Notes under the pieces: generated by a model
The model's database searches: none
Told to the model about the DNA's origin: nothing
The model's input: the letters and a program-made list of their open reading frames with translations, nothing else
In this document: one piece after another, positions 1-25,798 of the stretch
How the letters are laid out: each line of letters starts with the position of its first letter
Position numbering within the stretch: position 1 is the stretch's first letter
Source of the DNA: Rhizobium sp. Q54
GTDB lineage: Bacteria; Pseudomonadota; Alphaproteobacteria; Micropepsales; Micropepsaceae
Length of the DNA: 64,000 nt
Direction: 5' to 3'
Assembly: GCA_945860165.1 (NCBI GenBank)
Contig: CAMAPL010000001.1
Coordinates: forward strand, 1-64,000
Translations under genes and position numbers: made by a program

Positions 1-699
1 GAGAATCTGCATGCGCCAAGGCTGGCCTGGTTCTACGACCATGCCGGCGATGCCGATTTTCGCAAGGGCAAAGTTCGTCTCGAGATCGCTCCTGATGGCA
101 ACGCCAAGGGCCTGATCGGCGGCTATCGCGACTGGCGCAAGATCTACACGGAAAACACCTTCGCCCAGGACGGCGGCCAGCAGGGCATTCGCGAGCATGA
201 AGACGGCGTCGCTCTTTTTTATGCCCTCAAGCGTAATGCGGACGGCATGGCCGATCCCAAGACGGGCGAGAAGATGGGCATTTCGTCCACTTACCGGGTC
301 ACGGCGATGCCGGCCTATGTGGTGGATTCCGAAAAGCCTGTCGGCGTGACAGTCATAGCGGCGGAGGAGCGTCGCAAGGGCGCCTTCCTCGCCATCCGCG
401 CCGCCACCATCAAGTCCTCACTGACCAGAGCAGTGCAGGGCGTGCCGCCCGGTACGTCGCAGGGTGCGTTTCCCGCACTGGAACGGAACATCTCCGATCT
501 GCCGAGCAGGGAGTTTTTTCTGAAAACTCTGGATCGCCCGCACTATACCGCCGAGGTCACCGAATATGAATTTGAAGGTGAGCGGGTCAATAACAAAACC
601 GGCCTTGATGAGCCCGAGCCCAATGTAAAACCGGCGCCCGACAAGCAGGTGCGCAACGATGTGGCTCCGGCTCAGCTAGCCGACGCCAGAAAGCGTTAA
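1..699 (+). CDS. C-terminal part of an unrecognised exported protein family (5' end outside window)
   Basis: The reading frame is open from the first base of the window and ends at TAA 697-699, so the visible 232 residues are the C-terminal part of a longer protein. It aligns along its whole length with the C-terminal half of the protein at 8208-9716: both have a tryptophan-phenylalanine-tyrosine-aspartate stretch, a glycine-rich YRDWR/YRNWR segment, then a near-identical block reading ENTFAQDGGQQGIREHED. The ATG at 247 is internal to this conserved frame and is not the real start. The last 40 residues are charged and proline-rich. I do not recognise the family. It converges on the acetamidase-like gene with a 45-base gap. 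Function unknown; export is inferred from its full-length paralogue, which has a signal peptide. Confidence 0.85.
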   Translation, partial: ENLHAPRLAWFYDHAGDADFRKGKVRLEIAPDGNAKGLIGGYRDWRKIYTENTFAQDGGQQGIREHEDGVALFYALKRNADGMADPKTGEKMGISSTYRVTAMPAYVVDSEKPVGVTVIAAEERRKGAFLAIRAATIKSSLTRAVQGVPPGTSQGAFPALERNISDLPSREFFLKTLDRPHYTAEVTEYEFEGERVNNKTGLDEPEPNVKPAPDKQVRNDVAPAQLADARKR

Positions 700-744: not shown

Positions 745-2043
745 TCACTTTCGAATCTGGCTCAGCGTGTCCTTACGGACCTTGGCAACGACATTGTATT
801 CGGAATCCACCACTTCGGCGATTTCGTATTGCATGGCGGTGCCTAAGAGAGGGGCGATTTCCTGCGGCGATAGCTGATAGGTCGTCGCCAACCAGCGGCT
901 CATCTCGGTGGTCGCGCTTTTCATGGCTGCGTCCAGTGTCACGCCTGTCCCCATGATCATCATGAAATCGGCGCTCTCGACCCTGGTTTGGCCACCCGCC
1001 TGGCCCGGGATGACATCCACGGTGAATTGCACGTCCATCGAGGTTTCCAGGCCCTGGCCCGGCAATTCGCCGTCGCCCTGCTGGGCATGGCCATCCCCGA
1101 TGAACAGCAAGGCGCCGGGCTGGAACACCGGTAGGTAGACCGTGACCCCTTCGCGCATCTGCGCGGTATCCAGATTGCCGCCATAAGGGCCCAGGCGGCC
1201 GCTTACGAAGGTTTCATCGCGGGGCGGCGCTACGCCGATACCGCCCAGCATGGGGTCCAGCGTGACCTTGTAGTCCGCCAGCGCGGCTGTGGGATTGATG
1301 ATGGTGGCGACGCCTGCAGCGGCGTCGATCTTCCACTGGGTGAAGCCGCTTTCGAACTTCGCCAGCTCCCGCAGATAGCCAGGTTCCAGCGCGTTGCTGG
1401 AGATCAGGTTGCTCTGATAGGCGGTATCCCGGTTGGTGCGTATCCGGTCCAGGCGCACCACCAGCGTATCGCCCGGCATGGCGCCTTCCACATAGAAAGG
1501 TCCCGTCTGGGGGTTGCCGCGCGGCGCCCGCGGCTTGCCGTCCCGGTCGAAGCCGCGGCTGTCGAGCGTGTGCGTCTTGACACTGTCGCCGGGGAATATC
1601 CGCAGAGCCGGCGGGATCGTGCCTGAGAAAAATGTATGGAATTTCTGCGGGTTGAATTCGTGGATTCTTGGCGCGGGCCGAGCTGTGGGCCGCTTGCCCT
1701 CGATGGTCACCGGTAGATCCTGCAATGTGCCGCTGCCCGTCAGCTGATTACCGGACAGGTGAAGGACAAAAGACCCGCAAGGCTTGCCATTGTCGTCGCA
1801 GGTCAGATGCAGGCCATCCTTTTTCACCTGGCCTGTGAAAAGTGCCCGCTGATTATAGGACGCAACGGTGCGGCCTTCGCGTTGCTCCACGGTCAGGCGC
1901 CCGTCGACCATCGGGAGGTAGTAGTTTTTCTGTCCAAATTCGCGGACCGAGACTTCCCAGGTGCCGAAATAGCCGGTCTGGGCGAAGGCGGCCGCAGAAC
2001 CTGACATCAGCAGGATCAGCGACAGTGAAACCGGACGGATCAT
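745..2043 (-). CDS. exported acetamidase/formamidase family protein
   Basis: The 432-residue product begins with a Sec signal peptide (hydrophobic stretch in the first 21 residues, cleavage near AFAQ). An N-terminal beta-rich extension to about residue 115 is followed by an acetamidase/formamidase-like domain; its clearest signature is GDGHAQQGDGE, in which the GDGH and QGDGE elements are typical of FmdA/AmdA proteins. Family members hydrolyse short amides to ammonia and the acid, normally in the cytoplasm; here the enzyme would act in the periplasm. It lies 40 bases downstream of the NHL propeller gene on the same strand and is probably cotranscribed with it. The N-terminal extension and the signal peptide are departures from classical cytoplasmic FmdA. 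The natural substrate cannot be inferred. Confidence 0.8.
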   Translation of the reverse strand: MIRPVSLSLILLMSGSAAAFAQTGYFGTWEVSVREFGQKNYYLPMVDGRLTVEQREGRTVASYNQRALFTGQVKKDGLHLTCDDNGKPCGSFVLHLSGNQLTGSGTLQDLPVTIEGKRPTARPAPRIHEFNPQKFHTFFSGTIPPALRIFPGDSVKTHTLDSRGFDRDGKPRAPRGNPQTGPFYVEGAMPGDTLVVRLDRIRTNRDTAYQSNLISSNALEPGYLRELAKFESGFTQWKIDAAAGVATIINPTAALADYKVTLDPMLGGIGVAPPRDETFVSGRLGPYGGNLDTAQMREGVTVYLPVFQPGALLFIGDGHAQQGDGELPGQGLETSMDVQFTVDVIPGQAGGQTRVESADFMMIMGTGVTLDAAMKSATTEMSRWLATTYQLSPQEIAPLLGTAMQYEIAEVVDSEYNVVAKVRKDTLSQIRK

Positions 2044-2083: not shown

Positions 2084-3214
2084 CTAGCGCGACACACCCT
2101 TGAACGTGAATTTCTGCACCCGACCGTCCCGTCCGTCGCCCGTATAAATGTTCCCCTTAGAATCGGTGGCGATGATGTGCAGTCCCAGGAACATGCCCGG
2201 CTGCGCACCGACATGGCCGAACTTGCCCTGCGGGATTTCCTGCAGCGTCTGACGGTCCAGCACCCGGATGCGCTGCTGGTGTCCTTCACAGACATAGAGG
2301 AAGCGCTGCTCCTTGTCGCCTGACAGCGCCACGCTGTTGACGGTGCCGAAGCCCACCATGGGAATTTCTCGGGCAACAAAAGCTTCCTTGAGGAACTTGC
2401 CATCCAGGCTGAAAGCCTGGACGCGGTTGTTGTTGCGGTCGGCGACATAGACGATGCCGTCTTTGGAGATGGTGAGGCCGTGCACCAGGTTGAATTGCTG
2501 CGGCACAGGATCGTAGGTCCGCTCCTTGGAGGCGCTGTCGTCCGGCGCCTTGCCATAGGCGCCCCACATCCGCTTGAACTTGCCGGTGTCGGCATCAACC
2601 ACGATCACGCGCCGGTTGCCATAGCCGTCGGAAATGAACATCTCGTTGGTGGCGGCCCAATAGACCGGCTGTGAGGGGTGATTGAGGTTTTCGGTGTCGA
2701 GGCTGCCCTTGCTTTGCGCAGACCTTCCGATCTGCAACAGGAATTTGCCGTTATTGGTGAACTTCAGACACTGATTGTCGTCCAGTTTGAGCTTGGCGTC
2801 GCGGCCATTGCCGCAGACCCAGACATTCTCCTTGGAATCCACGGCGATACCATGCTCTGCGATGGGCCAGTCGAATTTGGCGCGCTCGGGATCGCTCATC
2901 GCGAATGGTCCGCCCCAGCCCTTCAGGAATTTTCCGGTCGCGTCGAACGCCACCACCGACGGGGCAGGGACGCCGGACGCTTCCTGTGGCGGTTCATCGA
3001 TCTGCGGGATAATGCGGCGAGGCCGGGAGATCACCCAGAGATTGTCATGGTCATCAACGGTCAGGCCGGCGATCTGCCCGAAGAAATAGCCCTTGGGCAT
3101 CTGCCTGGGCCAGTTCGGATCGACCTCGAATCTTGGATATGTCTGCGCATGCGCCGACGTGATTAGCGCAGCCAGTCCAAATAGAACCGATGACGCCCAA
3201 GTGCCTGTTTTCAT
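2084..3214 (-). CDS. exported NHL-repeat (six-bladed beta-propeller) protein
   Basis: I place the start at the ATG at 3214 (MKTGTW...), because this gives a clean Sec signal peptide ending ITSAHAQ; the open frame extends further upstream but without a plausible start region. The mature 355 residues carry repeated NHL-like units such as 'DDHDNLWV', 'DSKENVWV', 'DGIVYVADRNNNRVQ' and 'DSKGNIYTGDGRDGRVQKF'. NHL propellers of this type are periplasmic scaffolds or lyases; catalysis cannot be claimed here. The protein is a close paralogue of the one at 3371-4534, which is transcribed in the opposite direction from the same 156-base region. It is the first gene of a two-gene unit with the acetamidase-like protein. 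Confidence 0.85.
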   Translation of the reverse strand: MKTGTWASSVLFGLAALITSAHAQTYPRFEVDPNWPRQMPKGYFFGQIAGLTVDDHDNLWVISRPRRIIPQIDEPPQEASGVPAPSVVAFDATGKFLKGWGGPFAMSDPERAKFDWPIAEHGIAVDSKENVWVCGNGRDAKLKLDDNQCLKFTNNGKFLLQIGRSAQSKGSLDTENLNHPSQPVYWAATNEMFISDGYGNRRVIVVDADTGKFKRMWGAYGKAPDDSASKERTYDPVPQQFNLVHGLTISKDGIVYVADRNNNRVQAFSLDGKFLKEAFVAREIPMVGFGTVNSVALSGDKEQRFLYVCEGHQQRIRVLDRQTLQEIPQGKFGHVGAQPGMFLGLHIIATDSKGNIYTGDGRDGRVQKFTFKGVSR

Positions 3215-3370
3215 GGTTTTTCTCTTTTCGCGGCAGTGACTGGGAGTATGCCACACGTACAAAAACGGATAAATCATGCGCTGCAACAACGGCATTGACG
3301 GTGGAAAACTGGAACAGGCCGGGCAACTGGGCCATATTGCGGGCAACAAGAACAATGCAGGGAGGTTGGG
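3215..3370. promoter_or_regulatory. shared intergenic region between divergent NHL paralogues
   Basis: These 156 bases lie between the starts of two paralogous NHL genes read in opposite directions and must carry both promoters. I see no clean consensus -35/-10 pair or strong dyad by eye. The upstream extension of the left gene's open frame across this region is taken to be a non-coding shadow, because the signal peptide starts at 3214. Confidence 0.5.
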
Positions 3371-4534
3371 ATGACACGCCTTTTTTCAGGGCATGGGTGG
3401 AAAAGCGGTTTCGGCCTTTTCGCTTTGGCGCTGATCGTGCATCCCGTTGTCGCGCTGGCGCAAAGCTATCCGGTCTTTGAAGTGGACTTCAGCTGGCCCC
3501 GACAATTGCCGCACGGCTACGTTTTTGGTCCCAGCGGGGGCGTCACCGTCGATGCCAAAGGCAACATCTGGGCCTATTCGCGTCCGACCCAGCTTCGGAT
3601 CGCCATAAACGATCCGCCGGAAGAAGAATCAGGCGTCCCGGCGCCTTCGGTGATTGAACTGACCCCAGACGGGCGCTTTGTCAGGGGCTGGGGCGGCAAG
3701 GTCGCGATGAGCAAGGCCGAACTGGCCAAGTTCGACTGGCCGATCCAGGAGCATGGCATCGCCCTGGATGGCAAGGACCGCGTCTGGGTGTGCGGCAATG
3801 GCCGCGATCCCCAAGGTGAGAAAGAAAAGCGCAGCAAGGAAGACAATCAATGCCTGGTGTTCACCGCCGCCGGAAAGTTCGTGATGCAGATTGGCAAGGC
3901 CGGGCAGAACAGGGGCAGCCTGGACATGGAAAATCTCGGCCGCCCTTCGCAGCCGGTCTATTGGGCTGCCACCAACGAGATGTTCATTTCCGACGGCTAC
4001 GGTAACCGGCGGGTAATGGTGCTGGACGCCAACACCGGCAAGTTCAAGCGGATGTGGGGCGCCTATGGCCGGCCGCCGGACGACAGCTATTCCAGGGACA
4101 GAGTTTATAAACCGGTGCAGCAGCAATTCAATCTGCTTCACGGCATGGGCATTTCGCAGGACGGCACCGTGTATGTCGCCGACCGCAACGCTAACCGCGT
4201 CCAGTCCTTCACGCTGGAAGGCAAGTTCTTAAACGAAAGCGTGATTGGTCCGAACTCACCGATGACAGGCAACGGCTCGGCTTTTGGCGTCGCATTTTCC
4301 GGCGACAAGGAGCAGCGGTTTCTCTATGTCGCCGACGGCCATAGTCAGAAAGTGCGCATACTGGACCGCAAGACGCTGGCGGAAATTCCCGGCTCGGCTT
4401 TCGGTCGTATCGGGCTGGGCAACGGACAGCTCGCAAATATTCACGTCATCGCCAATGACGCGCAGGGCAATCTCTATATCGGCGATGGCGGCGGGCGCTT
4501 CCAGAAGTTCGTGTTCAAGGGACTATCGAAATAG
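3371..4534 (+). CDS. exported NHL-repeat (six-bladed beta-propeller) protein, divergent paralogue
   Basis: The 387-residue protein has a signal peptide (hydrophobic run around residues 13-30, ending VVALAQ) and then follows the same plan as the divergent 2084-3214 protein, starting with YPVFEVDFSWPRQLPHGY against YPRFEVDPNWPRQMPKGY. Shared landmarks include SRPTQLR..INDPPEEESGVPAPSV, KFDWPIQEHGIA, the NEMFISDGYGNRRV block and a terminal GGGRFQKFVFKG. It carries a short lysine/glutamate-rich insertion (around residue 155) absent from its sister. It leads a plus-strand unit with creatininase, TPR-oxygenase and PLP enzyme genes; the gap to the next start is 19 bases. Likely a periplasmic binding or scaffold propeller; a catalytic role is not shown. 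Confidence 0.85.
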   Translation: MTRLFSGHGWKSGFGLFALALIVHPVVALAQSYPVFEVDFSWPRQLPHGYVFGPSGGVTVDAKGNIWAYSRPTQLRIAINDPPEEESGVPAPSVIELTPDGRFVRGWGGKVAMSKAELAKFDWPIQEHGIALDGKDRVWVCGNGRDPQGEKEKRSKEDNQCLVFTAAGKFVMQIGKAGQNRGSLDMENLGRPSQPVYWAATNEMFISDGYGNRRVMVLDANTGKFKRMWGAYGRPPDDSYSRDRVYKPVQQQFNLLHGMGISQDGTVYVADRNANRVQSFTLEGKFLNESVIGPNSPMTGNGSAFGVAFSGDKEQRFLYVADGHSQKVRILDRKTLAEIPGSAFGRIGLGNGQLANIHVIANDAQGNLYIGDGGGRFQKFVFKGLSK

Positions 4535-4553
4535 TTTTCATTAGGAGACTGCA

Positions 4554-5351
4554 ATGTACCGATACCTACTGCTGATCGCTGCGCTTTGCGTGGCAAGTCC
4601 GGCCCTGGCGCAGGCGCCCGATACGGTCTTCCTGGAGCGGATGACCTGGGATGAAGTGCGCGATGCTATTGCCGCTGGCAAGACGACCATCATCATCCCG
4701 ACGGGCGGTACCGAGCAGAATGGCCCGCATATGGCGCTCGGCAAGCACAATGTCCGGGTCACCGCCAACGCCAACACCATCGCGCGCCGGCTAGGCAATG
4801 CATTGGTCGCTCCTGTGATGGCTTATGTTCCCGAGGGGGGCATCGATCCGCCCACCGGCCATATGCGTTTCGCCGGCACCATCGGTCTTCCCGACCCCGT
4901 TTACCGGCAGGTTCTGGAGTATGCCGCCCGCAGTCTGAAACAGCATGGCTTCCGCGATGTCGTCTTTCTGGGTGACAGTGGCGGCAACCAGCCCGGCCAG
5001 ACCGCGGTCGCCGCCACGCTCAATGCGGAGTGGGCCGGTTCCAATGTGCGGGTCCATACCTTTTTCAACTATTATCGCGGCGATCCCGAAGGCAGCGCTG
5101 TCCTGATGATGCAGCGCGGCATCCGCAGGGACGAGATTGGCGACCATGCTGATGTGCGCGACACATCTTTGATGATGGCAATTGATCCCAGTATGGTCCG
5201 CACGAACAAGTTGCAGGCGGGAGACGGGAAGAACGGGGTGGTGGGCGATCCGCGCCGTGCAAGCGCGGAAATCGGCCGCGCCCTTATCGAGAACACGGTA
5301 ACGCGCACAGTCGAGGAAATCCGGGCATCCATCGCCGCAGCACGAAAGTAG
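4554..5351 (+). CDS. exported creatininase-family protein with altered metal ligands
   Basis: A strong ribosome-binding site (TAGGAGA) precedes the ATG. The product has a 20-residue signal peptide ending ALAQ and a creatininase-like domain with the hallmark GGTEQNGPH at residues 51-59 and an SGGNQ loop near residue 144. Canonical creatininases bind two metals through Glu34, His36, Asp45 and His120 (Pseudomonas numbering). By eye, Glu54 keeps the first, but Asn56 replaces His36, His65 stands where Asp45 is expected, and a serine stands in the place of His120 (GDSGGN instead of GHGGN-type). It therefore belongs to a distinct, probably periplasmic subfamily. The family also includes amidohydrolases acting on cyclic amides. 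It is coupled to the NHL gene upstream and to the TPR-oxygenase 3 bases downstream. Confidence 0.8.
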   Translation: MYRYLLLIAALCVASPALAQAPDTVFLERMTWDEVRDAIAAGKTTIIIPTGGTEQNGPHMALGKHNVRVTANANTIARRLGNALVAPVMAYVPEGGIDPPTGHMRFAGTIGLPDPVYRQVLEYAARSLKQHGFRDVVFLGDSGGNQPGQTAVAATLNAEWAGSNVRVHTFFNYYRGDPEGSAVLMMQRGIRRDEIGDHADVRDTSLMMAIDPSMVRTNKLQAGDGKNGVVGDPRRASAEIGRALIENTVTRTVEEIRASIAAARK

Positions 5352-5354
5352 CTC

Positions 5355-6800
5355 ATGCTTCATGTTGGCGATGCTCTGGGCAACGCCCGCTCGCTGCTTG
5401 AGCGTGGCCGGAGCGGCGAAGCATGCGACCTTCTACTCCAGGCCATGGCAGGTGGGCTGGAAGGCCCACAGGTCCGAAGCCTGATGGGATTTATCCTGCA
5501 CCAGCAGGGCGACTTGACTGGCTGCGAGCGCGAGTTGCGTCACGCGGTGCGCCTGGCGCCGGACGATGGCGCCGCGGAATTCGCGCTGGCCTCGATTTCT
5601 TTCCGGCTGGGCAACGAAGCTGAGGCAGAGGCCGCCACCTGCCGCGCCATCGCCAAGGGCATGGACGATGTCCATTCGCACCAGCTACTGGGGCGCATTC
5701 TGGGCAAGCAGGGCCGCTTCGCCGAAGCAGCAAGCGCCTATCGCAAAGCGGTGCGGCACGATCCGTCCTCGCTCCAGGCCCAACGTGAGCTGGCCGATCT
5801 GGTCTGGATGCTGACTGGCGATCTGGCGAAGGCGCGCGCCGAATTGGACGTCGCCCCACAGACGCATGAAATCATCGCGATCACCGTGCGTCTGCTACAG
5901 GCCGCCGGCGAGGATGAGGCCGCCTATGCGCTGGCGGCAGCGCGGGCCGAGCGCGATCCCACGCTTAACGTGCTGGCCGCGCGGGCCGGGCTGCGGATCG
6001 ATCCTCAAGCCGCCGACCGGCATCTGGGGGCGGTCCTGCCGAGCGTCCCCCCGGGCGCGCGCGCCAAGGCCGAGATCGAGGTCGATCTGGCGCTTGGGCG
6101 CATCACGCAGGCCGTCAGGCGCAGTGAAGCCCTGCACGCGGCACAGCCGGACGATCAACACGCCACCGCCTTGTTGGCCACCGCCTGGCGGCTGGCGGGT
6201 GATCCCCGCTACCATGCGCTTTACGACTATGACCGGCTGGTTAAAACCTATCGCATTGATCCGCCCGAGGGCTGGAACAGCCTGGCGAGCTATCTTGGTG
6301 ATCTCAGCCTAGCTCTCGACAAAAATCATGGACCTCTGACCCACCCGGTGGGGCAATCACTCCGGCATGGCAGCCAGACCCCGCGCGCTTTGGCCGATTA
6401 TCCCGATGCAGCGATCCGCGCCCTGTTTGGTGCCATTGCCCCATTGATCCGCCGCCACATCACTGCCATCGGAACGCCTGACCAGACTTACAAAATCGCC
6501 AGCGCCTGGTCCGTGCGGCTGAACAGCGGCGGCTTCCACATCAATCACATCCATCCCGAAGGCTGGCTCTCCTCGGCATTCTATGTCCGCACGCCGAGCG
6601 CACTAGAAGGAATAGAAGGTGCCCTCAAGTTCGGCGAGCCCGGCCCGCCGACGTCTCCGGTCTTGCGCGAAGACCATCTGGTCAGGCCCGAGCCGGGAAT
6701 GCTGGTGCTGTTTCCGGCTTATATGTGGCACGGCACGGTTCCGTTTTCGTCGGGGGATACCAGGCTGTCCTGCGCTTTTGATATCGTGCGCCAGCGATGA
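5355..6800 (+). CDS. TPR protein with C-terminal 2OG-Fe(II) oxygenase-like domain
   Basis: The start ATG follows the creatininase stop by 3 bases. The 481 residues contain tetratricopeptide repeats over about residues 10-300 and a C-terminal double-stranded beta-helix domain of the putative 2OG-Fe(II) oxygenase type. The visible catalytic signature is HINHIHPEGWLSSAFYV (His395, His398, His400), followed by MWHGT (His459) and a downstream arginine in TRLSCAFD that could bind 2-oxoglutarate. No signal peptide is seen, so it is cytoplasmic, unlike its neighbours. It is a paralogue of the protein at 32678-34510, which has the same C-terminal block. Such TPR-oxygenases probably hydroxylate a peptide or protein, but the target is unknown. 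Confidence 0.8.
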   Translation: MLHVGDALGNARSLLERGRSGEACDLLLQAMAGGLEGPQVRSLMGFILHQQGDLTGCERELRHAVRLAPDDGAAEFALASISFRLGNEAEAEAATCRAIAKGMDDVHSHQLLGRILGKQGRFAEAASAYRKAVRHDPSSLQAQRELADLVWMLTGDLAKARAELDVAPQTHEIIAITVRLLQAAGEDEAAYALAAARAERDPTLNVLAARAGLRIDPQAADRHLGAVLPSVPPGARAKAEIEVDLALGRITQAVRRSEALHAAQPDDQHATALLATAWRLAGDPRYHALYDYDRLVKTYRIDPPEGWNSLASYLGDLSLALDKNHGPLTHPVGQSLRHGSQTPRALADYPDAAIRALFGAIAPLIRRHITAIGTPDQTYKIASAWSVRLNSGGFHINHIHPEGWLSSAFYVRTPSALEGIEGALKFGEPGPPTSPVLREDHLVRPEPGMLVLFPAYMWHGTVPFSSGDTRLSCAFDIVRQR

Positions 6801-6831: not shown

Positions 6832-8091
6832 ATGACAATTTTCGGATCACGTCGCGGGTTTTTTTCCTGGACACGGAACGCCATGGCTGCCGCTGGCGTA
6901 TCGGTTGCGACACCCAGCCTCGCGGCAGTCGATACGACCCGTTCCGCACTTGCCGGTGGTGAGGATTATTACGACAAGCTTGGTGTTTCAAAGATCATCA
7001 ATGCTGCGGGAACATTCACGGCGCTCACCGCCTCGATTATGCCACCCTCGGTGCAAGCCGCGGTCTCCAACGCCGCCAAGTATCCGGTCAGGCTGGCCGA
7101 ATTGCAGAAAAGGGCTGGCGAATATATTGCGCAGCGCCTGATGTGTGATGCCGCGCTGGTGAGTTCGGGCGCGTCTGCGGCTCTCACATTGGGCACGGCG
7201 GCCTGCATGACGGTGGGCAATCGCCCGGCGGCGCGGTTGCTGCCTCTGGATGTGTCTGGACTGAAGAACGAGGTGATCGTCCAGAAATCCCATCGCTATG
7301 GCTACGATCAGGCCATACGCAATTGCGGCATCCGGTTTGTGGAAGTCGAGACATTGCAGCAGTACGAGGCTGCTTTCACTGACCGCAGCGTGATGTGTCA
7401 CTTCTTCAATGCGGCCGAGCAGGGGCAGATCACAGCCGAGCAATGGGTTGCCGTGGCGCACCGCCACGGCGTGCCGTGCTTCAACGATGCCGCCGCCGAC
7501 GTGCCGCCAATTTCAAACTTGTGGAAATTCACCCGGATGGGCTTCGACCTTGTGACGTTTTCGGGTGGCAAGGGGCTGCGCGGCCCGCAAAATGCCGGCC
7601 TACTGCTGGGCCGCAAGGATCTGATCGAAGCCGCGACCTGGAGCAACAGTCCAAACAGCGACAGTGTTGGCCGGGGCCTGAAAGTCGCAAAGGAACAGAT
7701 CGTCGGCATGGTGGCCGCTGTCGACTGGATACTGGCGCAGGACGAAGGCACGATACAGGCAGAATTCCGCCAGAGGGCGGACCGTATCGCCGCGCATCTC
7801 AAGGACATTCCTGGCCTGACGCCGGAGATATTTGTGCCGCCGATCGCCAATGTCGTGCCGCACCTCGTGCTGCGCTGCGATCCAGCGAAAATCGGAAAGA
7901 CGCCCATCGAGATTTCGGAAATTCTGCGCAAGAGTTCGCCCTCGATAGAATTGAACCCATGGACGGGGCGGAAATCCGCTGGGGCAGGCACCCCCGAGGC
8001 CGAAAATGCCATTGTTGTCGGGGTCTGGATGCTGCAGCCGGGCGAAGACATGATCGTCGGACGGCGTTTGCGGGAGGTGCTTTCTGTTTAA
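6832..8091 (+). CDS. Tat-exported PLP-dependent enzyme of the SelA/DgaE-like group
   Basis: A ribosome-binding site (GGGAGAAG) lies 8 bases before the ATG. The N-terminus carries a twin-arginine motif (SRRGFF, residues 6-11) and a hydrophobic segment ending SLAAV, so the folded holoenzyme is probably exported by Tat. The body has fold-type I PLP features seen in SelA-like and D-glucosaminate-6-phosphate ammonia-lyase-like proteins: INAAGTFT near residue 56, SSGASAA near 110, and SGGKGLRGPQNAG, in which Lys247 is the likely Schiff-base lysine. Family reactions include beta-eliminations on amino-sugar or amino-acid substrates; the substrate here is unknown. It ends the 3371-8091 unit. PLP normally binds in the cytoplasm, which fits Tat rather than Sec export. 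Confidence 0.78.
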   Translation: MTIFGSRRGFFSWTRNAMAAAGVSVATPSLAAVDTTRSALAGGEDYYDKLGVSKIINAAGTFTALTASIMPPSVQAAVSNAAKYPVRLAELQKRAGEYIAQRLMCDAALVSSGASAALTLGTAACMTVGNRPAARLLPLDVSGLKNEVIVQKSHRYGYDQAIRNCGIRFVEVETLQQYEAAFTDRSVMCHFFNAAEQGQITAEQWVAVAHRHGVPCFNDAAADVPPISNLWKFTRMGFDLVTFSGGKGLRGPQNAGLLLGRKDLIEAATWSNSPNSDSVGRGLKVAKEQIVGMVAAVDWILAQDEGTIQAEFRQRADRIAAHLKDIPGLTPEIFVPPIANVVPHLVLRCDPAKIGKTPIEISEILRKSSPSIELNPWTGRKSAGAGTPEAENAIVVGVWMLQPGEDMIVGRRLREVLSV

Positions 8092-8207: not shown

Positions 8208-9716
8208 ATGATCCTGAAACAGCGACTTCTGGCGTCCGCCATGACCATATTGATGGCATGCGCAGTTGTGCCGCCGGCAACAGCCGCGCCCTGGATGCGT
8301 GGTTTTGTGGTCGGTTCCTACGAGTATGCTTTCCGCTATGGCGGACGGGCCGGTTTCACCCGCGAAGGCGAGATCGAGCCAGGCGCGGACTGCCGCCATG
8401 GCAGCAGTACCCATTTCGCCGATGACGTCCGCACCAAGCACGCCGTGGCGAGCCAGACATGGCGCACGCAGCAAGAGATCGACTGGATCTCCGCGCCGCC
8501 GGGATTGGAAAAGGTGCGCGCCCCCAACCTGACACGTTTCTATATCTGGGACCGCGCGCTGTCGCATCGCGGCTACAAGAAAGAGATTGAAACATACGTC
8601 AATCCTTTCGCCGCCGAGGATCCCGGCCAGCCCGAGGTCACTAGCCGCATTGGCGACGGCTTCAATCTGGACGGCAAGGTCAAGGTTGACGACTTTGTCA
8701 GTGCTGACGGCGAGCAGGGTATCGACAATGCCCTGTACCGGGCCTGGGGATGCGATGCGCCCTGGCGCGGTAATGGCAATGCCACCTTGCACCTGCGTGC
8801 CAACGACAAGATGCAGGGCGGACTGTACACGATGGTGGTCCGCATCTCTGGCAACAAAGACCCGATGAATGATGACAACGCCACGGTCGAGATCGGCTAT
8901 TCGCCCGACAAGATCACCCAGAATGCCCGCAGCGAAGTGGCGACCGATTTTTCCTACCGGATTGTCAAAAGCGAGCAATATACGAAACTGAAGGCTAAAA
9001 TTCGCAATGGCGTGGTCGAAACGCAGCAGGTAGCGGCGCTGCATACGCCCCGCATCGCCTGGTTCTATGACCAGACCGGGGATACGAACTTCACCCAGGG
9101 CCGCATTCGCCTCAACATCGCTGCAGACGGCCAGTCGGCCACGGGCCTTGTCGGCGGCTATCGCAACTGGCGCGACCTGTATGCCGAGAACACTTTCGCC
9201 CAGGATGGCGGCCAGCAGGGCATCCGCGAACATGAAGATCATGTCGCGCTTTACTACGCCCTGCGGCGCAATGCCGACGGCATGTACAATGCCAAGACAC
9301 GAAAATATGACGGCATCTCCAGCGTCTATCGTATCAAACTGGCCACGGCCTATGTGATCGATCCGGACAAGCCGGTGGAACTCTCCAAGCTGCTGGTGGA
9401 AGAAGACCGCAAGGCCGCTTTTGAAGCCACCAAATTTGCCGTGATCAAGGGCACCGACACCCGCATCCCGCAACTGGTGCCGCCCGGCACAACCCAGGCT
9501 GCGATCGGGATCATGGAACGGCTGGTGGTTGATCTGCCGAGCAAGGATTTCTTTCTTAAAACCCTGTATCGTCAACGCTTTCCTGGCGAGGACGAAGAGG
9601 GCATTCCGCCCTGGTTGCAGGACAGTTTCGGCCGCACGAAACCGCAACTTCCGCCGCAGCCTACAAAGCCACAGCAGGAGGCGAGGGAAATAGGCATTCC
9701 GTTGGCAAAGCCTTAG
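8208..9716 (+). CDS. exported protein of unrecognised family, full-length paralogue of the 1-699 fragment
   Basis: The 502-residue product has a good Sec signal peptide (MILKQRLL..., cleavage near ATAAP at about residue 26) preceded by GGAGGAG. I recognise no catalytic motif. The N-terminal third is rich in aromatic residues and includes an EGEIEPGADCRHG segment; the C-terminal half matches the truncated copy at the left edge of the window, with a shared ENTFAQDGGQQGIREHED core. The C-terminal 30 residues are a proline/glutamine-rich tail. A small exported protein gene begins directly after its stop codon. A 634-residue open frame on the opposite strand overlaps it but is a high-GC shadow. 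Periplasmic or outer-membrane-associated location is inferred; the function is unknown. Confidence 0.85.
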   Translation: MILKQRLLASAMTILMACAVVPPATAAPWMRGFVVGSYEYAFRYGGRAGFTREGEIEPGADCRHGSSTHFADDVRTKHAVASQTWRTQQEIDWISAPPGLEKVRAPNLTRFYIWDRALSHRGYKKEIETYVNPFAAEDPGQPEVTSRIGDGFNLDGKVKVDDFVSADGEQGIDNALYRAWGCDAPWRGNGNATLHLRANDKMQGGLYTMVVRISGNKDPMNDDNATVEIGYSPDKITQNARSEVATDFSYRIVKSEQYTKLKAKIRNGVVETQQVAALHTPRIAWFYDQTGDTNFTQGRIRLNIAADGQSATGLVGGYRNWRDLYAENTFAQDGGQQGIREHEDHVALYYALRRNADGMYNAKTRKYDGISSVYRIKLATAYVIDPDKPVELSKLLVEEDRKAAFEATKFAVIKGTDTRIPQLVPPGTTQAAIGIMERLVVDLPSKDFFLKTLYRQRFPGEDEEGIPPWLQDSFGRTKPQLPPQPTKPQQEAREIGIPLAKP

Positions 9717-11732: not shown

Positions 11733-12842
11733 ATGTCGCAACCAGCCATACAATCAAATACAATATACTTAAAAGTCTTAAGGCCGTTTTGGGTCTGGTT
11801 TGGTCGAGCAGCCGAGCGCGTATTCCACCCGGTCGAGAAACTTTTCTATGTCGCAGTTGTAAAGCAAATCAGCTGGTTGCTCGACCACATTGATCCTTTA
11901 AGTCATAGGATTGAAGGCACACTCTTCAAAAAAATTCTGCAGGTTACGATCTTTCCGCTGTTCATGACGGCCACCGTCGTAATCGGTTTCAATTTGGTCA
12001 AGGGCGGCTATACAAGCCAGACCTTCATTGCATCCATAGGCATGTATCTTATCTATGGTGCGATATGGATGCCACTTGAGCGGCTGATTCCGTTTAGTAG
12101 GAAGTGGCTGAAAAACTCCGACGGGTCGACCGACGTCATGCTGCTGTTCGGCAACAAGATTTGCGGCGACTGGATTATAGTGCCGCTGCAATTCGCGACC
12201 ATCGCCATTGTGGTGCAGGAGATATCGCCAGCGATAGGGCAATCCATTTGGCCATCATCGCTCCCGCTCTTGGCGCAAGTCTTTTTGCTTCTGGTGATTA
12301 ACGATTTCTTCCGCTACTGGTACCACCGGTGGATGCATGAAAACAGTTTCATGTGGCGCTGGCACGCCGTGCACCATTCCTCGGAACGCCTGTACTGGTT
12401 CAACGGCACCAGGTCCCACCCGCTCGAAAGACTTGTGAATGGCTTCCTGTGGGCAATCCCGCTGGCGTTCGTAAAAGCGCCTGTCGAAATCGTGTTCGTG
12501 GCCTACCTGGTCAGTCGCACGATCGGCCGCTTCCAGCACACCAATATGGACGTGATCCTGGGACCATTTGATTACATTTTCTCCTCGCCGAAAAATCATC
12601 GTTATCACCATTCGAAAAACATGCGGGAAGGCAACACCAATTACGGCGGCGACGTCATAATCTGGGATCTTCTATTCGGCACCTTCTATTTGCCAAAAGG
12701 CAAACAGCCCAGCGATGATATCGGTGTCGGGGACGTGGTTAATTATCCGCAGTCGTTCGTCGGCTTGATGTTGGCCCCCTTCAATCACCGCGCTTTGCAG
12801 AAACAGTCGCAAGCGCCTGTAAAAATCGTCGCAGCTGAATGA
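11733..12842 (+). CDS. sterol desaturase / fatty acid hydroxylase superfamily membrane protein
   Basis: The 369 residues contain several membrane segments (about residues 70-120, 150-200, 240-265) and the eight-histidine pattern of the di-iron hydroxylase family: HRWMH (His198, His202), HAVHH (His211, His214, His215) and HRYHHS (His289, His292, His293). Members insert oxygen into lipid or sterol alkyl chains at the membrane, and this one most likely acts on a lipid. By eye its base composition is lower in GC than the flanking genes, with more AT-ending codons. It stands alone, with no cotranscribed partner. The lipid substrate is not inferable; other members include carotenoid hydroxylase-type and alkylglycerol-monooxygenase-like proteins. 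Confidence 0.82.
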   Translation: MSQPAIQSNTIYLKVLRPFWVWFGRAAERVFHPVEKLFYVAVVKQISWLLDHIDPLSHRIEGTLFKKILQVTIFPLFMTATVVIGFNLVKGGYTSQTFIASIGMYLIYGAIWMPLERLIPFSRKWLKNSDGSTDVMLLFGNKICGDWIIVPLQFATIAIVVQEISPAIGQSIWPSSLPLLAQVFLLLVINDFFRYWYHRWMHENSFMWRWHAVHHSSERLYWFNGTRSHPLERLVNGFLWAIPLAFVKAPVEIVFVAYLVSRTIGRFQHTNMDVILGPFDYIFSSPKNHRYHHSKNMREGNTNYGGDVIIWDLLFGTFYLPKGKQPSDDIGVGDVVNYPQSFVGLMLAPFNHRALQKQSQAPVKIVAAE

Positions 12843-15890: not shown

Positions 15891-18386
15891 ATGCGTCATT
15901 GGCTGCCAGGTCTGGTTATTGCGGCAAGCATCGCATCGCCCCTTCATGCGCAGACGCCGGACGCCACTTTCTTCGAAACCAAGATACGCCCGGTCCTGGC
16001 GACTAATTGCTATGGCTGCCATAACTCTGCCATGGCCGCCCCGAAGGGCAATCTCGTCCTTGATACACGCGAAGGCCTGCGCAGCAAGCTTGAGTCGGGC
16101 AAGCCCGACGAAAGCCGGTTGCTGAAAGTCCTCAGCTTCACGGATCCCGTCGTGCAGATGCCACCAAAAGGCAAGCTGGCTGACTCCATTCTGGCCGATT
16201 TCCGGCAATGGATCGCGGCGGGTGCGATAGACCCTCGCGGTGCCGCGCCCGCCACGGCAGTCGCGTCGTCAGCGTCCCAGTATAAAGGCTTGTCGCTGGA
16301 TGAAGGCCGCAAATGGTGGGCGTTCCAGCCTGTCGCGACCAAGCCTGCACCGAACGTCGCGGCTGCGCATGGTCCGCGCAACAACAAGGTAGACAGCTTC
16401 ATTCTTGCAAAATTGGCGGACAGGAAGCTGGCGCCATCCCCGAAGGCCGACAAGCGCACGCTGGTGACGCGCGCCTATGCGGACCTTGTGGGCTACAAGC
16501 CAACCTTTGGCGAAGTGCAGGCTTTCCTGGCCGATCAGAAGCTAGACGCCTATGCCCGGCTGGTCGATCGCCTGATGGCCTCACCGCAATATGGTGAACG
16601 CTGGGGCCGCCGCTGGATGGACGTGGTGCGCTATGCCGAGGATAATCCGACCTCGGAAGCGACCAATCCGCCTTATCCCTTTGCCTGGCGTTATCGCGAC
16701 TGGATCGTGGAAGCCATCAATGCGGACATGCCCTATGACCGCTTCGTCAAGCTGCAGCTGGCGGCCGACCTGATGCCGAACACCAAGCGCAGTGACATGC
16801 GGGCGCTGGGCTATCTGGGCGCGGCACCGGTCTATCATCACGACCTGCGGCTGTCGGGCGACGTCATTGGCGGTTTTATGACCGACGATTGGGACGAGCG
16901 GATCGATGCGGTGTCGCGCGGCCTGCTGGGCGTTTCGATCAGTTGCGCCCGCTGCCACGACCACAAGTTCGATCCCTTCAGCCAGAAGGACTACACCGCA
17001 CTGATGGGGGTGTTTGCCTCCACCACCCGTGCCGAGCGGCCCATGTTCGCAGTGGATTCGAAGACCGAGCAGAGCTACATGCTGCTGCAGCGCAAGCTGT
17101 TCGACCTGTCCTATTCCGCAAACCTGCTGGTGAATGAAACTTCGACCTTCACCAACCCATCCGAAAAGTCCGTCAAGTGGAAGTCGGTGATTGACGTTCT
17201 GAAGGCGCAGGCCAATGCGGCGCTCGCCAAATATCCGCAGCTTGTTGCAACGCTGGAACTATACTGGACGCCGCGCGCGCGTGGTGGCGCAGCGCCGCCG
17301 CCACCACCAGCCCCAGTCCGCCTCGCGGCCGGTGCCAAGCCCGCGCCTGCCGCACCGCCAGCGGCCGGCCGTGGTGGCCGTGGCAACGCCAGTTCTACAG
17401 ACCCCTACATGAATGCCGTGTTCGAGGCGGCACGCGATGTGGACGTGTCGGACCTTACCTACACCTTCATCACCTATAAGCCCGGCGAAACGCGGGACAT
17501 GCCGGTGTTCCGCGCCGGCAACTATGCGTCGCCCGGTGCTATCGTGCCGCGCGGCTTCCCGGCGGTGCTGGCGAAGGGCGACACGAACTTTCGCCAAGGC
17601 TCCGGTCGGCGCGAGCTGGCGGATCGCATCTTCACTGACTCGAAGGGGCTGGCGGCGCGCGTGATTGTCAACCGGGTCTGGGCCTGGCATTTCGGGCAGG
17701 GGCTTGTGACCACGCCAAGTGATTTCGGCACCCAGGGCGAAAAAGCTTCGCATCCGGAACTGCTGGACGATCTGGCCGCGCGTTTCATTGCCAATCGCTG
17801 GTCGCTGAAGTGGCTGAACCGGGAAATCATGCTGTCGGCGACCTATCAGCAGGCGAGCCGACCGCGTGCCGACGGTATGGTGGCCGATCAGGCGAACGCG
17901 CTGTTGTGGCGCCAAAACCCGCAGCGCCTCGATAGTGAGGCCTATCGTGACACGCTGGTGCGCGCTGCCGGTATTCTCGACCTGCAGGTGGGCGGGGCGC
18001 CGGGCGACCTGGATGACAGCACCTATTTCCGCCGGGCGATCTATGGCCGTGTCAGCCGCGCTCGTTCTTCGCAGATGCAGACGCTGTTCGATTTCCCCGC
18101 GCCCACGCAGACGGCGCCGAACCGTGATGTCACGACTTCGACGCTGCAGCAGGTTTTCCTGATGAACAGCGAATTCGTGCAGAATTTGTCGGCTGCTGCC
18201 GTGAAGACCGCGACGGCGAAGGTAACCAGCCAGCCGCAACAGGTGGTCGCGCTCTATCGGCAGGTGCTGGCGCGCAATCCTACCGCGGCCGAAACGGAAG
18301 CGGCGCTCACCTATTTGCAGAAAGGCACGCTGGTGCGCTTCGCCCAGATCCTGCTTTCGACCAATGAAGAGATTTTCCTGCCATGA
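15891..18386 (+). CDS. cluster I PSC1-DUF1549-DUF1553 protein with two CxxCH motifs
   Basis: The 831-residue product starts with a signal peptide ending LHAQ and an N-terminal planctomycete-type cytochrome c domain (PSC1) with CYGCH at residues 40-44. DUF1549 follows (about residues 175-410), containing a second CxxCH, CARCHDHKFDPF at residues 352-356 onward, which is a family hallmark. An alanine/proline/glycine-rich linker spans about residues 461-503, and DUF1553 occupies the rest. DUF1549/DUF1553 have no established biochemical function; the heme sites point to redox. It overlaps the DUF1501 gene by 4 bases (ATGA). Proline-rich linkers of this sort separate independently folding domains. 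Periplasmic location inferred. Confidence 0.85.
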   Translation: MRHWLPGLVIAASIASPLHAQTPDATFFETKIRPVLATNCYGCHNSAMAAPKGNLVLDTREGLRSKLESGKPDESRLLKVLSFTDPVVQMPPKGKLADSILADFRQWIAAGAIDPRGAAPATAVASSASQYKGLSLDEGRKWWAFQPVATKPAPNVAAAHGPRNNKVDSFILAKLADRKLAPSPKADKRTLVTRAYADLVGYKPTFGEVQAFLADQKLDAYARLVDRLMASPQYGERWGRRWMDVVRYAEDNPTSEATNPPYPFAWRYRDWIVEAINADMPYDRFVKLQLAADLMPNTKRSDMRALGYLGAAPVYHHDLRLSGDVIGGFMTDDWDERIDAVSRGLLGVSISCARCHDHKFDPFSQKDYTALMGVFASTTRAERPMFAVDSKTEQSYMLLQRKLFDLSYSANLLVNETSTFTNPSEKSVKWKSVIDVLKAQANAALAKYPQLVATLELYWTPRARGGAAPPPPPAPVRLAAGAKPAPAAPPAAGRGGRGNASSTDPYMNAVFEAARDVDVSDLTYTFITYKPGETRDMPVFRAGNYASPGAIVPRGFPAVLAKGDTNFRQGSGRRELADRIFTDSKGLAARVIVNRVWAWHFGQGLVTTPSDFGTQGEKASHPELLDDLAARFIANRWSLKWLNREIMLSATYQQASRPRADGMVADQANALLWRQNPQRLDSEAYRDTLVRAAGILDLQVGGAPGDLDDSTYFRRAIYGRVSRARSSQMQTLFDFPAPTQTAPNRDVTTSTLQQVFLMNSEFVQNLSAAAVKTATAKVTSQPQQVVALYRQVLARNPTAAETEAALTYLQKGTLVRFAQILLSTNEEIFLP

Positions 18387-22654: not shown

Positions 22655-25600
22655 ATGGCCAGCATAGTTAAGAGCAGGACGGTGTTGTTGATGGCTGCGG
22701 CCGTCCTGATCGCGGTGATGGGAGGCGTGAGCGCTACGATCTTCGGCCATTCCACGCCCTCGCAGCCGCAAATTGAGTTCAACCGCGACATCCGCCCGAT
22801 CCTGAATGCCAACTGCATGGCCTGCCATGGCGGCGTAAAGCAGGCTGCCAATGTTTCCTTCTCTTATCGCGAGCAGGTGCTGGGCAAAGGCAAGTCCGGT
22901 CGCCCGACCGTGGTGCCGGGAAATCCCCGGGCTTCGGAGCTAATGGCCAGAATCACGTCGAAGGATGACGACGTGCGCATGCCGCTGCATACGGCGCCGC
23001 TATCGCAAAAGCAGATCGCGCTGCTGCGGCAATGGATCGAGGAAGGGGCGCACTGGTCGGACTATTGGGCTTTCGTGTCACCCAAACCGCAGCCGCTGCC
23101 GGCGGTGAAGCGGGCTGCCTGGGTACGCCGGCCGCTGGACCGTTTCATTCTGGCGCGCCTCGAGAAGGAACATCTTTTCCCTTCGGCCGAGGCTGGCAAG
23201 GCCGAGCTTTTGCGGCGGGCCTCGCTGGACTTGACGGGCTTGCCGTCCACGCCGCAGGAGCAGGCGAATTTTCTCGCCGATACCTCCCCGGCCGCGTATG
23301 AAAAACAGGTGGACCGGTTGCTTGCGTCGCCGCGCTATGGCGAGCGCTGGGCGACCATGTGGCTGGATGTTGCCCGCTATGGAGACAGCAAGGGCTTTGA
23401 GAAAGACAGAAGCCGCACGGTCTGGCCGTATCGCGACTGGGTGATTGACGCCTTCAACCGCAACATGCCCTTCGACCAGTTTGTCATCAGGCAGTTGGGG
23501 GGCGACCTGTTCCCCAAGCCCAGCTTTGGTGACCTTATCGCCACCTCTTTCCATCGCCAGACCCAGGCCAATGACGAGGGCGGCACCGATGATGAGGAAT
23601 TCCGCATTGCCGCGATGATGGACCGCACGTCCACGACCTGGTCTGCATTGAACGGGGTCAGCTTCAACTGCGTGCAGTGCCATTCGCACCCTTACGACCC
23701 CATCCGCCACGATGAATATTATAAGTTCATGGCGTTCTTCAATACACAACGTGACGCGGACATTGCCTTCGACAATGCCAGGCCGGATGACTGGCCCGTG
23801 CTGAACGTGCCCATCGACAAGGCACAGTATGGTGCGGCCGACCGACTGCAGAAACAGATCAGTGCGGTGCGCGAAACCGTCGTGGCCGCCAGCCGGGCCG
23901 CGGAGGCCCGCACGCAATGGAAGCCGCTGCCGATCCAGCAGGCCGGCATTAGCGAGGTGCTGGCAATCAAGGCATTGCTGGCTAAGGCCCTGGCCAAGGG
24001 CGGGGACGGCGAAGACAAGCGCGCCAAGCAGATCGAACGGCTGCAGAAGGAACTCGCCCGCGCCGAACTGCATCCGCCGCAGGCATCGTTGCAGATCAGA
24101 AACGGCATGGCCGAAAGCAAGGGCACCGTTCCCCGCAACACGGTGTTCGAGCTCACCGCGACACTAGACACCCCGACACTGACTGCCATCCGGATCGAAG
24201 TCCCGCCCGCCAATTCCGAGGCGGCCCATACGCCGGAGAAGGGCTTCATCGTCAACCATGTCGATGCCTGGATTGTCAGGACCGGTGGCGGCGCTGACAA
24301 GATCACCTTCCGCCTGATGGCGCCCGATGCGGCGGACAGCCTGATCGCCGATGTCGCGCGCGACATGAAGGCCAACGGGAAGATCAAGGCCAAGGAATAC
24401 GGCAAGGACAAGACCGGCCGACCGGTCGAGAAAATGGTCGGGACCAGCCAGCCGGAGGCCAAGCCGCGCACGCCGGACGAGGTGATGCAGAGCGTCGCCG
24501 CCAACAGCGGTCTTCTGGCCGATCCTAGTCTTTTCTATGCGCGCTGGGTGGTGGCGGTTCCCGATCGTCCAATCCAGTTGCTCGCCGGCGCCAGGCTGCG
24601 GTTGCAGCTGACCCAGACGGAATCTGTCAACCAGACCATCGGCGCCGCGCCGCGCGTGCGACTGTTCACCAGCAACGATAAGCGCTGGACGGCGCTGGCG
24701 CATTCTTCGCAGATTGCCAGTTCGCTGGCCGACCTGGAACAAATGGACCACGACCTCTCGGCCATTCCCGCAGTGCTGGTGCCGGTGATGGCAGAGCAGG
24801 CCGGTTACGAAAAGCGGCAAACCCTGGAATATGATCGCGGCAGTTTCCTCACCCAGGCCGGCCCCAACCTCGCACCCGACACGCCCGCCTTGTTCCCGAG
24901 AATGCCCACCAACGCGCCGCACAATCGCCTGACCCTGGCGAAATGGTTCTTCCAGCCCGGCCAACCCCTTACGGCGCGCGTGGCGGTGAACCGCTACTGG
25001 GAGCAGTTGTTCGGCACCGGCATTGTGGAGTCACAGGAAGATTTCGGCAGCGCTGGCGACCCGCCCAGCCATCCTGAACTACTGGACTGGCTGGCGCTGC
25101 GTTTCCAGAACGACCTGCATTGGAACCAGAAGGCGCTGGTGCGGGAGATCGTGACCAGCGCCACCTATCGACAGAGCGCCGGCTCGACAGCGGCGCTACG
25201 CGACAAGGATCCGCGCAACCGCCTCTTGGCGCGCGGGCCGCAGCAACGCTTGTCGGCCGAGATGGTGCGCGACCAGGCGATGCTGTCCAGTGGCTTGCTC
25301 AATCCGCAGATGGGCGGCCCGCCCGTCATGCCCGCCCAGCCCGAGAATATCTGGAACGTAGTGTCCAACAATCCGGAACGCTGGGTTAACGCCACCGGAC
25401 CTGACCGCTATCGCCGCGCAGTCTATACCTTCGTCAAGCGCACCTCGCTGTATCCCAGCTTCGTCACGTTCGATGCCGCGGATCGCACCCAGACGACCCC
25501 ACGCCGCATCACCACCAACACGCCGTTGCAGGCGCTGGTGACCCTGAATGATCCGGTCTATCACGAGGCTGCCATCGCCCTGTCCGGGCGCATGCTGAAG

Positions 25601-25798
25601 GAAGGCAAGGGGCCGCTGGACACCCGCCTAAACTATGGTGCCAACCTAGTGCTGTCGCGCGATCTCACGCCAGAAGAACTGGCGCCGCTGCACCGTCTTT
25701 ATGTGCAGGCGGGTGGCGGTGCGTCGCCCAACAGCCTGGCCGGCTATACCGCGGTAGGCACCGCCCTGCTCAACCTCGACGCCGCGCTGACAAGGTAA
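22655..25798 (+). CDS. cluster II PSC1-DUF1549-DUF1553 protein with two CxxCH motifs
   Basis: The 1047 residues begin with a hydrophobic signal or membrane anchor (about residues 10-28), then PSC1 with CMACH at residues 54-58 and an axial-ligand-bearing DDDVRMPLH segment. DUF1549 (about residues 140-365) contains RYGERWATMWLDVARYGDS and a second heme-like CVQCHSHPYDPI (CxxCH at 339-343). A long middle region (about residues 400-720) has a charged helical part and a beta-rich part absent from the cluster I homologue. DUF1553 follows (about 740-1040). It is coupled to the DUF1501 gene by a 1-base stop-start overlap. Probably a periplasmic redox protein; the reaction is unknown. Confidence 0.87.
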   Translation: MASIVKSRTVLLMAAAVLIAVMGGVSATIFGHSTPSQPQIEFNRDIRPILNANCMACHGGVKQAANVSFSYREQVLGKGKSGRPTVVPGNPRASELMARITSKDDDVRMPLHTAPLSQKQIALLRQWIEEGAHWSDYWAFVSPKPQPLPAVKRAAWVRRPLDRFILARLEKEHLFPSAEAGKAELLRRASLDLTGLPSTPQEQANFLADTSPAAYEKQVDRLLASPRYGERWATMWLDVARYGDSKGFEKDRSRTVWPYRDWVIDAFNRNMPFDQFVIRQLGGDLFPKPSFGDLIATSFHRQTQANDEGGTDDEEFRIAAMMDRTSTTWSALNGVSFNCVQCHSHPYDPIRHDEYYKFMAFFNTQRDADIAFDNARPDDWPVLNVPIDKAQYGAADRLQKQISAVRETVVAASRAAEARTQWKPLPIQQAGISEVLAIKALLAKALAKGGDGEDKRAKQIERLQKELARAELHPPQASLQIRNGMAESKGTVPRNTVFELTATLDTPTLTAIRIEVPPANSEAAHTPEKGFIVNHVDAWIVRTGGGADKITFRLMAPDAADSLIADVARDMKANGKIKAKEYGKDKTGRPVEKMVGTSQPEAKPRTPDEVMQSVAANSGLLADPSLFYARWVVAVPDRPIQLLAGARLRLQLTQTESVNQTIGAAPRVRLFTSNDKRWTALAHSSQIASSLADLEQMDHDLSAIPAVLVPVMAEQAGYEKRQTLEYDRGSFLTQAGPNLAPDTPALFPRMPTNAPHNRLTLAKWFFQPGQPLTARVAVNRYWEQLFGTGIVESQEDFGSAGDPPSHPELLDWLALRFQNDLHWNQKALVREIVTSATYRQSAGSTAALRDKDPRNRLLARGPQQRLSAEMVRDQAMLSSGLLNPQMGGPPVMPAQPENIWNVVSNNPERWVNATGPDRYRRAVYTFVKRTSLYPSFVTFDAADRTQTTPRRITTNTPLQALVTLNDPVYHEAAIALSGRMLKEGKGPLDTRLNYGANLVLSRDLTPEELAPLHRLYVQAGGGASPNSLAGYTAVGTALLNLDAALTR

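Follow-up and report, generated by a model that had tools for sequence, protein, structure and literature searches.

The stretch of DNA analysed here, 64,000 nucleotides in length and referred to as the window, forms the first part of contig 1 of the Rhizobium sp. Q54 genome (G000; 2.48 Mb, 42 contigs), and its closest named homologues are from binned alphaproteobacterial genomes. Near its left end two paralogous NHL propellers, NHL_L and NHL_R, start back to back, and each is followed by a gene for a protein of a hydrolase family, FmdA on the left and creatininase on the right. A first-pass annotation had described back-to-back propellers each followed by an exported amidohydrolase-type protein, and all four genes were confirmed by their Pfam matches, the 60 % identity of the two propellers (379 alignment columns, E 2e-173) and the 156-bp gap between them. 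What it missed is that the propellers look catalytic, both resembling mammalian PAL (peptidyl-alpha-hydroxyglycine lyase), which is the lyase part of peptidylglycine amidating monooxygenase. The features of the locus are as follows.

1–699, plus strand: C-terminal portion of a second X502 copy (58 % identity to X502), converging on FmdA; the contig begins here.
745–2043, minus strand: FmdA, predicted exported acetamidase/formamidase-family protein (PF03069), second gene of the left arm.
2084–3214, minus strand: NHL_L, predicted exported six-bladed PAL-like propeller (Pfam NHL), first gene of the left arm.
3215–3370, no strand: putative divergent control region common to both propellers, 156 bp, with blocks kept in 4/4 close relatives.
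3267–3289, no strand: 23-bp element GGATAAATCNTGCGCTGCANCAA, kept in 4/4 relatives, a possible operator or promoter part.
3371–4534, plus strand: NHL_R, predicted exported PAL-like propeller and NHL_L paralogue, first gene of the right arm, with residues RHYHRH.
4554–5351, plus strand: predicted exported member of the creatininase family, from a separate clade (PF02633; EQNGP ... GKHN ... GDSGG).
5355–6800, plus strand: TPR protein with a C-terminal putative 2OG-Fe(II) oxygenase domain (PF13759, 74.1 bits); no signal peptide seen.
6832–8091, plus strand: SelA/DgaE-like PLP protein (PF03841) with a twin-arginine-like N-terminus.
8208–9716, plus strand: X502, predicted exported protein of no known family, multi-copy in the genome (9 places in G000).

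The Pfam NHL scores of NHL_L and NHL_R were 51.2 and 32.4 bits (cut-off 20). The mechanical open reading frame of NHL_L opens at a TTG at 3355, and a plausible ATG lies at 3214. All four proteins have a signal-peptide-like N-terminus, judged by eye and by hydropathy, suggesting that both the propellers and the hydrolases are exported. Together with these N-termini, the short intergenic gaps (40 bp between FmdA and NHL_L, 19 bp between NHL_R and creatininase) fit two divergent exported units. The left enzyme falls outside the interval 2084–5351 given in the first-pass annotation, whose description of mirror-image operons did not hold. Symmetry ends after the second gene on each side; as the right arm runs on through the TPR/2OG-Fe(II), SelA-like and X502 genes (gaps of 3, 31 and 116 bp), giving about five genes against two on the left, the arms are not mirror images. 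Exact mirror duplication was ruled out, the partner enzymes being from different families and the arms of different lengths. The locus is real and locally conserved, with a mirror symmetry that is recent and incomplete.

Blocks of the 156-bp spacer, including the 23-bp element, were identical in all four close relatives. At up to 3 mismatches the element was found in one place each in G000 and in G035. The spacer contained no site in a sigma-70 scan, nor did the region as a whole show an excess (2 found against 2.0 expected).

To characterize the propellers, they were compared with solved structures, and the matches for both were generic NHL domains and PAL. The phmmer matches to rat PAL (3fvz) had E-values of 4e-17 and 2e-12 for the two propellers, at 24–26 % identity. 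The AF2 model of NHL_L (pLDDT 92.2, 23 strands listed) had 3fvz as its top Foldseek match in the PDB (E 1.8e-20), and the end-to-end alignment of the two pairs 19..376 of the model with residues 492..815 (Z 33.8, rmsd 3.0, 293 residues). For the catalytic positions of rat PAL we took R533, H585, Y654, H690, R706 and H786, and the letters in 3fvz fit at all six (chain position equals rat number minus 491). H585, Y654, H690 and R706 are aligned by phmmer with the identical NHL_L residues H121, Y198, H245 and R260, and R533 was aligned to R64 by profile, in a weak segment. The end-to-end fold alignment should pair the sixth blades of the two proteins, so that H346 would be the expected counterpart of H786. 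In the model H121, H245 and H346 lie near the start of strands 120–125, 244–249 and 345–350, which we read as probable inner strands of blades 2, 4 and 6. NHL_L therefore appears to carry the three histidines expected of PAL, H121 and H245 by alignment and H346 by blade order and fold. The likeness to rat PAL extends over a six-bladed NHL propeller, three histidines in alternate blades, and a tyrosine and two arginines in matching places (R64, H121, Y198, H245, R260 and H346 in NHL_L), and NHL_R has the same RHYHRH.

Residue conservation was calculated over 95 family rows drawn from L038–L108, L113–L128 and the window; three of 96 NHL rows, each shorter than 250 amino acids, were excluded from the counts. 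All six residues occurred together in 80/95 rows; of the other 15, 8 have nothing but gaps, mostly where contigs are cut, and 7 have substitutions. Among rows with a letter at the position, conservation was 92/94 for R64, 94/94 for H121, 94/94 for Y198, 90/95 for H245, 93/93 for R260 and 87/88 for H346, and all six positions were within the 52 of 376 columns conserved at least 93 %. RHYHRH was also present in 11 of 12 further, distant homologues, the exception being a Mesorhizobium protein in which Asp replaces the second Arg. Distant homologues in a plasmid collection bear the PAL name; three of the 12 are annotated as PAL-family, and two of these three have all six residues. The remaining NHL protein of the window, encoded at 13018, has QHIRRH instead. 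No PHROGs match was found for the propellers, and their scores against the ScyF equivalog NF035926 (64.3 and 62.4 bits) are far under its cut-off of 350. The PAL-like fold and residues suggest that both propellers are catalytic and may be metal-binding lyases. Two departures were seen elsewhere in the family. Four NHL rows from Acidobacteria contigs (L103, L105, L106), forming one clade, have Leu for channel His245, and the Mesorhizobium gene with Asp for the second catalytic Arg (L202, 4968–5879), itself annotated as PAL-family, lies beside genes for ectoine uptake and breakdown.

FmdA-family enzymes hydrolyse short primary amides. The window protein scored 82.5 bits against PF03069 (FmdA_AmdA; cut-off 27) and matched the acetamidase structures 2f4l (E 4e-30) and 3tkk (E 6e-29). 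It shares the family core and conserved motifs with the known members (2f4l, 3tkk, 2ii1), with GGN.D and GD.HA.QG.GE intact, but differs in its signal-peptide-like N-terminus, in an N-terminal extension of ~130 amino acids, and in scoring 43.5 bits against the formamidase equivalog NF045496 (cut-off 500). Loss of an active-site histidine (HGGN to YGGN) was considered and rejected, the position being variable across 25 family rows.

The creatininase-family protein scored 149.4 bits against PF02633 (cut-off 31.3), with the family core at 28–255 of 265 amino acids. It shares this core with creatininase (3a6g, 1j2t) and the mycofactocin peptidase MftE, but falls under the cut-offs of both equivalogs (TIGR04448, 78 against 235 bits; TIGR03964, 86.6 against 172 bits), has a signal-peptide-like N-terminus and belongs to a separate clade with support 100/99. 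In this CREATININASE clade the metal-site motif is replaced, from the canonical EQHGP...D...NGHGGN to EQNGP...GKHN...GDSGGN in the window protein. The combination of EQ[NSK]GP, G[KR]HN and GD or GE was found in 19/19 clade rows, the window and 18 loci, whereas none of the 13 canonical relatives has lost EQHGP, the Asp or the NGH His. Of the residues that we take to be the creatininase metal ligands, at positions consistent with the alignment, Glu34 is kept and the others are replaced (His36 by Asn, Asp45 by His, His120 by Ser, Glu122 by Gly). The 18 loci comprise 14 from a search of 398 genomes and four plasmid loci, the latter examined from 18 plasmid records matching creatininase at E up to 1e-20. 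Two further clade rows, from G001 and G017, and a more distant row from G014 were not counted among the 18, and L133 was left out of the tree as the same place as L176.

The gene next to the clade member was found to encode an exported YncE propeller in 12/18 loci and an FG-GAP protein in one, with no propeller in the remaining five; these propeller neighbours span Alpha- and Betaproteobacteria. By comparison, a detectable YncE or NHL relative was present in 0/13 canonical creatininase loci, for which the flanks were shorter (~1.5 kb). In the tree the YncE cases form one branch (80/83) and the NHL cases another (98/94), with the FG-GAP case apart, and these are therefore three associations rather than thirteen independent ones. 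The YncE propellers (PF21783) resemble the window arrangement in that an exported propeller directly follows a creatininase-clade gene, but they are another propeller family, and occur beside creatininase in other Alpha- and Betaproteobacteria and not here. The idea of the first-pass annotation that propeller and hydrolase act together thus gains support for the creatininase arm. In two of the five loci without a propeller (L225, L228) a fatty-acid-hydroxylase-type gene lies directly before the creatininase or is fused to it. The PF04116 domain accompanies GKHN-type creatininases at L228 3665–5500 and L225 3694–5480, and a PF04116 gene is also present in the window at 11733–12842. No paper on creatininase together with a propeller or YncE was found in the open-licence literature searched.

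The association of one creatininase clade with three propeller families in separate parts of the tree, and its absence from the canonical loci, could also be explained if any propeller fold serves, the propeller being a non-catalytic scaffold or substrate-presenting subunit that binds the hydrolase or its substrate. Of the explanations considered this is the nearest to that of the first-pass annotation, and we think it unlikely. A scaffold would have no need of the PAL catalytic residues, which the NHL members keep almost everywhere; the five clade loci with no adjacent propeller also count against it, and the 12 YncE cases, being on one branch, may be one event.

Conservation of the pairings was examined in 88 NHL loci, namely the window, 71 loci from a scan in which each species was represented by one genome, and 16 in genomes taken from the kinship search; L109–L112 were dropped as the same stretches as L039, L043, L047 and L048. 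FmdA directly adjoins NHL in 4/88 loci (the window, L038, L039 and L040) and creatininase does so in 3/88 (the window, L039 and L040); the L038 contig stops inside NHL_R. A distant FmdA relative lies 2.5 kb from NHL in L057. Both pairings are therefore found in other genomes and are confined to one tight clade of close relatives, so that the conservation of propeller with hydrolase is shallow. Within that clade both arms are kept with 77–92 % protein identity, along with the 23-bp element of the control region. An enrichment of amidase-signature genes was also considered, relatives of one PF01425 seed lying within 3.5 kb of NHL in L052, L053, L059, L060, L117 and L118, and was not taken as support: these matches look like three sister pairs, and 3/361 more distant genes also match. 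The NHL genes of L049–L055 and L063, on contigs titled Candidatus Marinimicrobia except for one with the title Bifidobacterium breve, cluster with alphaproteobacterial or acidobacterial genes; wrong titles or mixed bins may account for this.

In the NHL tree (90 rows, those under 300 amino acids excluded) the left and right propellers formed sister clades of 9 and 8 rows, each supported at 100/99. The earlier suggestion that a duplicated propeller was recombined with a different enzyme holds only in part. L043, the same contig as G001 C239, has one left and one right propeller in head-to-head arrangement, and the gene following the left one is of DUF1592 type instead of FmdA, indicating that the head-to-head pair is older than its present partners. 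Creatininase and FmdA relatives are on other contigs of that genome, and no end overlap was found in G001 that would link the NHL_R contig to creatininase. As the parts are separate in other genomes, the partners were gathered onto an existing propeller pair, each enzyme being recruited separately. Other left-clade relatives have a TPR/2OG gene nearby (L041, L042) or DUF1592/DUF1552 genes (L043, L045).

This history, with both pairings in a single tight clade, raises the alternative that these are unrelated exported catabolic enzymes sharing a control region in a gene-shuffling, scavenging locus, where adjacency does not imply a common pathway. The parts do occur in other company. In G001 and G036 the FmdA relative and X502 are convergent, as they are here, on a contig that lacks NHL (the same convergence was seen in L040 and L168); in G001 and G017 it is a SelA-like gene that comes after the creatininase relative; and the FmdA relative of G030 is grouped with a TonB receptor, 3-hydroxyacyl-CoA dehydrogenase and BKACE. 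We nevertheless regard this explanation as rather doubtful, though with a real chance of being correct, given the joint retention of both arms and the 23-bp element in close relatives and the short gaps between the genes.

The reading that we favour is tentative, and we would place it somewhat below an even chance: the two propellers would be exported PAL-like lyases, each with an exported amide-cleaving partner, under one shared divergent control region. PAL-type lyases convert R-CO-NH-CH(OH)-COOH to R-CO-NH2 and glyoxylate. In the window proteins a central-channel metal would be held by the three histidines (H121, H245 and H346 in NHL_L) and assisted by Y198 with R64 and R260, and the propeller would split an N-acyl hemiaminal, alpha-hydroxyglycine-like, into an amide and an aldehyde or glyoxylate. 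In the left arm the FmdA-type enzyme would hydrolyse the amide to an acid and ammonia; in the right arm the creatininase-type enzyme, from a clade often beside beta-propellers, would perform a related step. With an exported lyase adjoining an exported amidase, two consecutive steps would make sense, and a lyase-made amide would suit the neighbouring amidase. A broader version describes a bacterial extracytoplasmic route that makes an amide and then destroys it, in which PAL-like lyases release the amide from a hemiaminal and exported amidases convert it to acid and ammonia, and in which one of the partners comes from a new creatininase clade, its metal site rebuilt, acting together with propellers of several unrelated families; as a whole we consider this improbable.

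Several observations weigh against the proposed lyase–amidase pairs. The generic NHL propeller of Thin scores equally (Z 34.1), so Z does not separate PAL from it; fold alone is thus not decisive and the residues decide. Among these, the equivalence of H346 and H786 rests on blade order and fold match, with no printed residue alignment. Asp787, presumably the PAL calcium ligand, is apparently not kept, I347 following H346 in NHL_L, and neither is the cysteine that follows the catalytic Tyr of PAL. With one of five presumed metal ligands left, the creatininase could be inactive. The NHL family lies mostly beside DUF1592/DUF1552, metallo-beta-lactamase, MmgE/PrpD, PQQ proteins and transport genes, with FmdA adjacent in only the four loci above, and five other genomes (G001, G008, G016, G030 and G036) have FmdA relatives of 61–67 % identity without an NHL gene in the stretch read. 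A further difficulty is where a hydroxylated substrate would come from. No PF03712 or PF01082 match, as for the PHM copper monooxygenase partner of PAL, was found in the genome, and the control genomes of this search also gave none. As no signal peptide was seen in the 2OG-Fe(II) neighbour, it would be in another compartment. X502 was weighed as the missing hydroxylase, and its low-confidence model (pLDDT 44.1) and the lack of a histidine among its invariant columns speak neither for nor against that role.

PAL finishes hormone amidation in animals, and it has many bacterial relatives. The window proteins differ from it as stand-alone bacterial proteins, predicted to be exported, beside amidases that would destroy an amide. 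A literature search on bacterial PAL-like proteins found nothing on this locus. The locus sets two PAL-like propellers beside enzymes that would consume the product expected of them, which makes the idea testable, and the creatininase clade offers another such case through its altered metal site and recurrent propeller neighbours. Methylguanidine demethylation by MdgH and MdgL is a bacterial precedent for a hydroxylase with a lyase; according to PMC12508155, hydroxylation is followed there by a dedicated lyase acting on the hydroxylated intermediate, and the authors liken the scheme to PAL and report no sequence homology of MdgL with PAL. That system is not a propeller operon like the present one.

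Among the remaining genes of the right arm, the SelA-like protein scored 150.6 bits against TIGR01437, under its cut-off of 385, and X502 had no Pfam or NCBIfam match. Several of the 9 places of X502 in this 2.5-Mb genome are at contig ends; the loci noted were 8208–9716 and 1–699 of the window, L183–L190 and L194. X502 comes last in the L194 cassette, after DUF1592, DUF1552, a 165-amino-acid protein, a cytochrome b561-like protein, a 205-amino-acid protein and a cupredoxin-like protein, and similar cassette orders were seen in L040, L042 and L048. Further along the window, at 15891–18386 and 22655–25798, are two planctomycete-type PSCyt1-PSCyt2-PSD1 proteins in this alphaproteobacterial genome.

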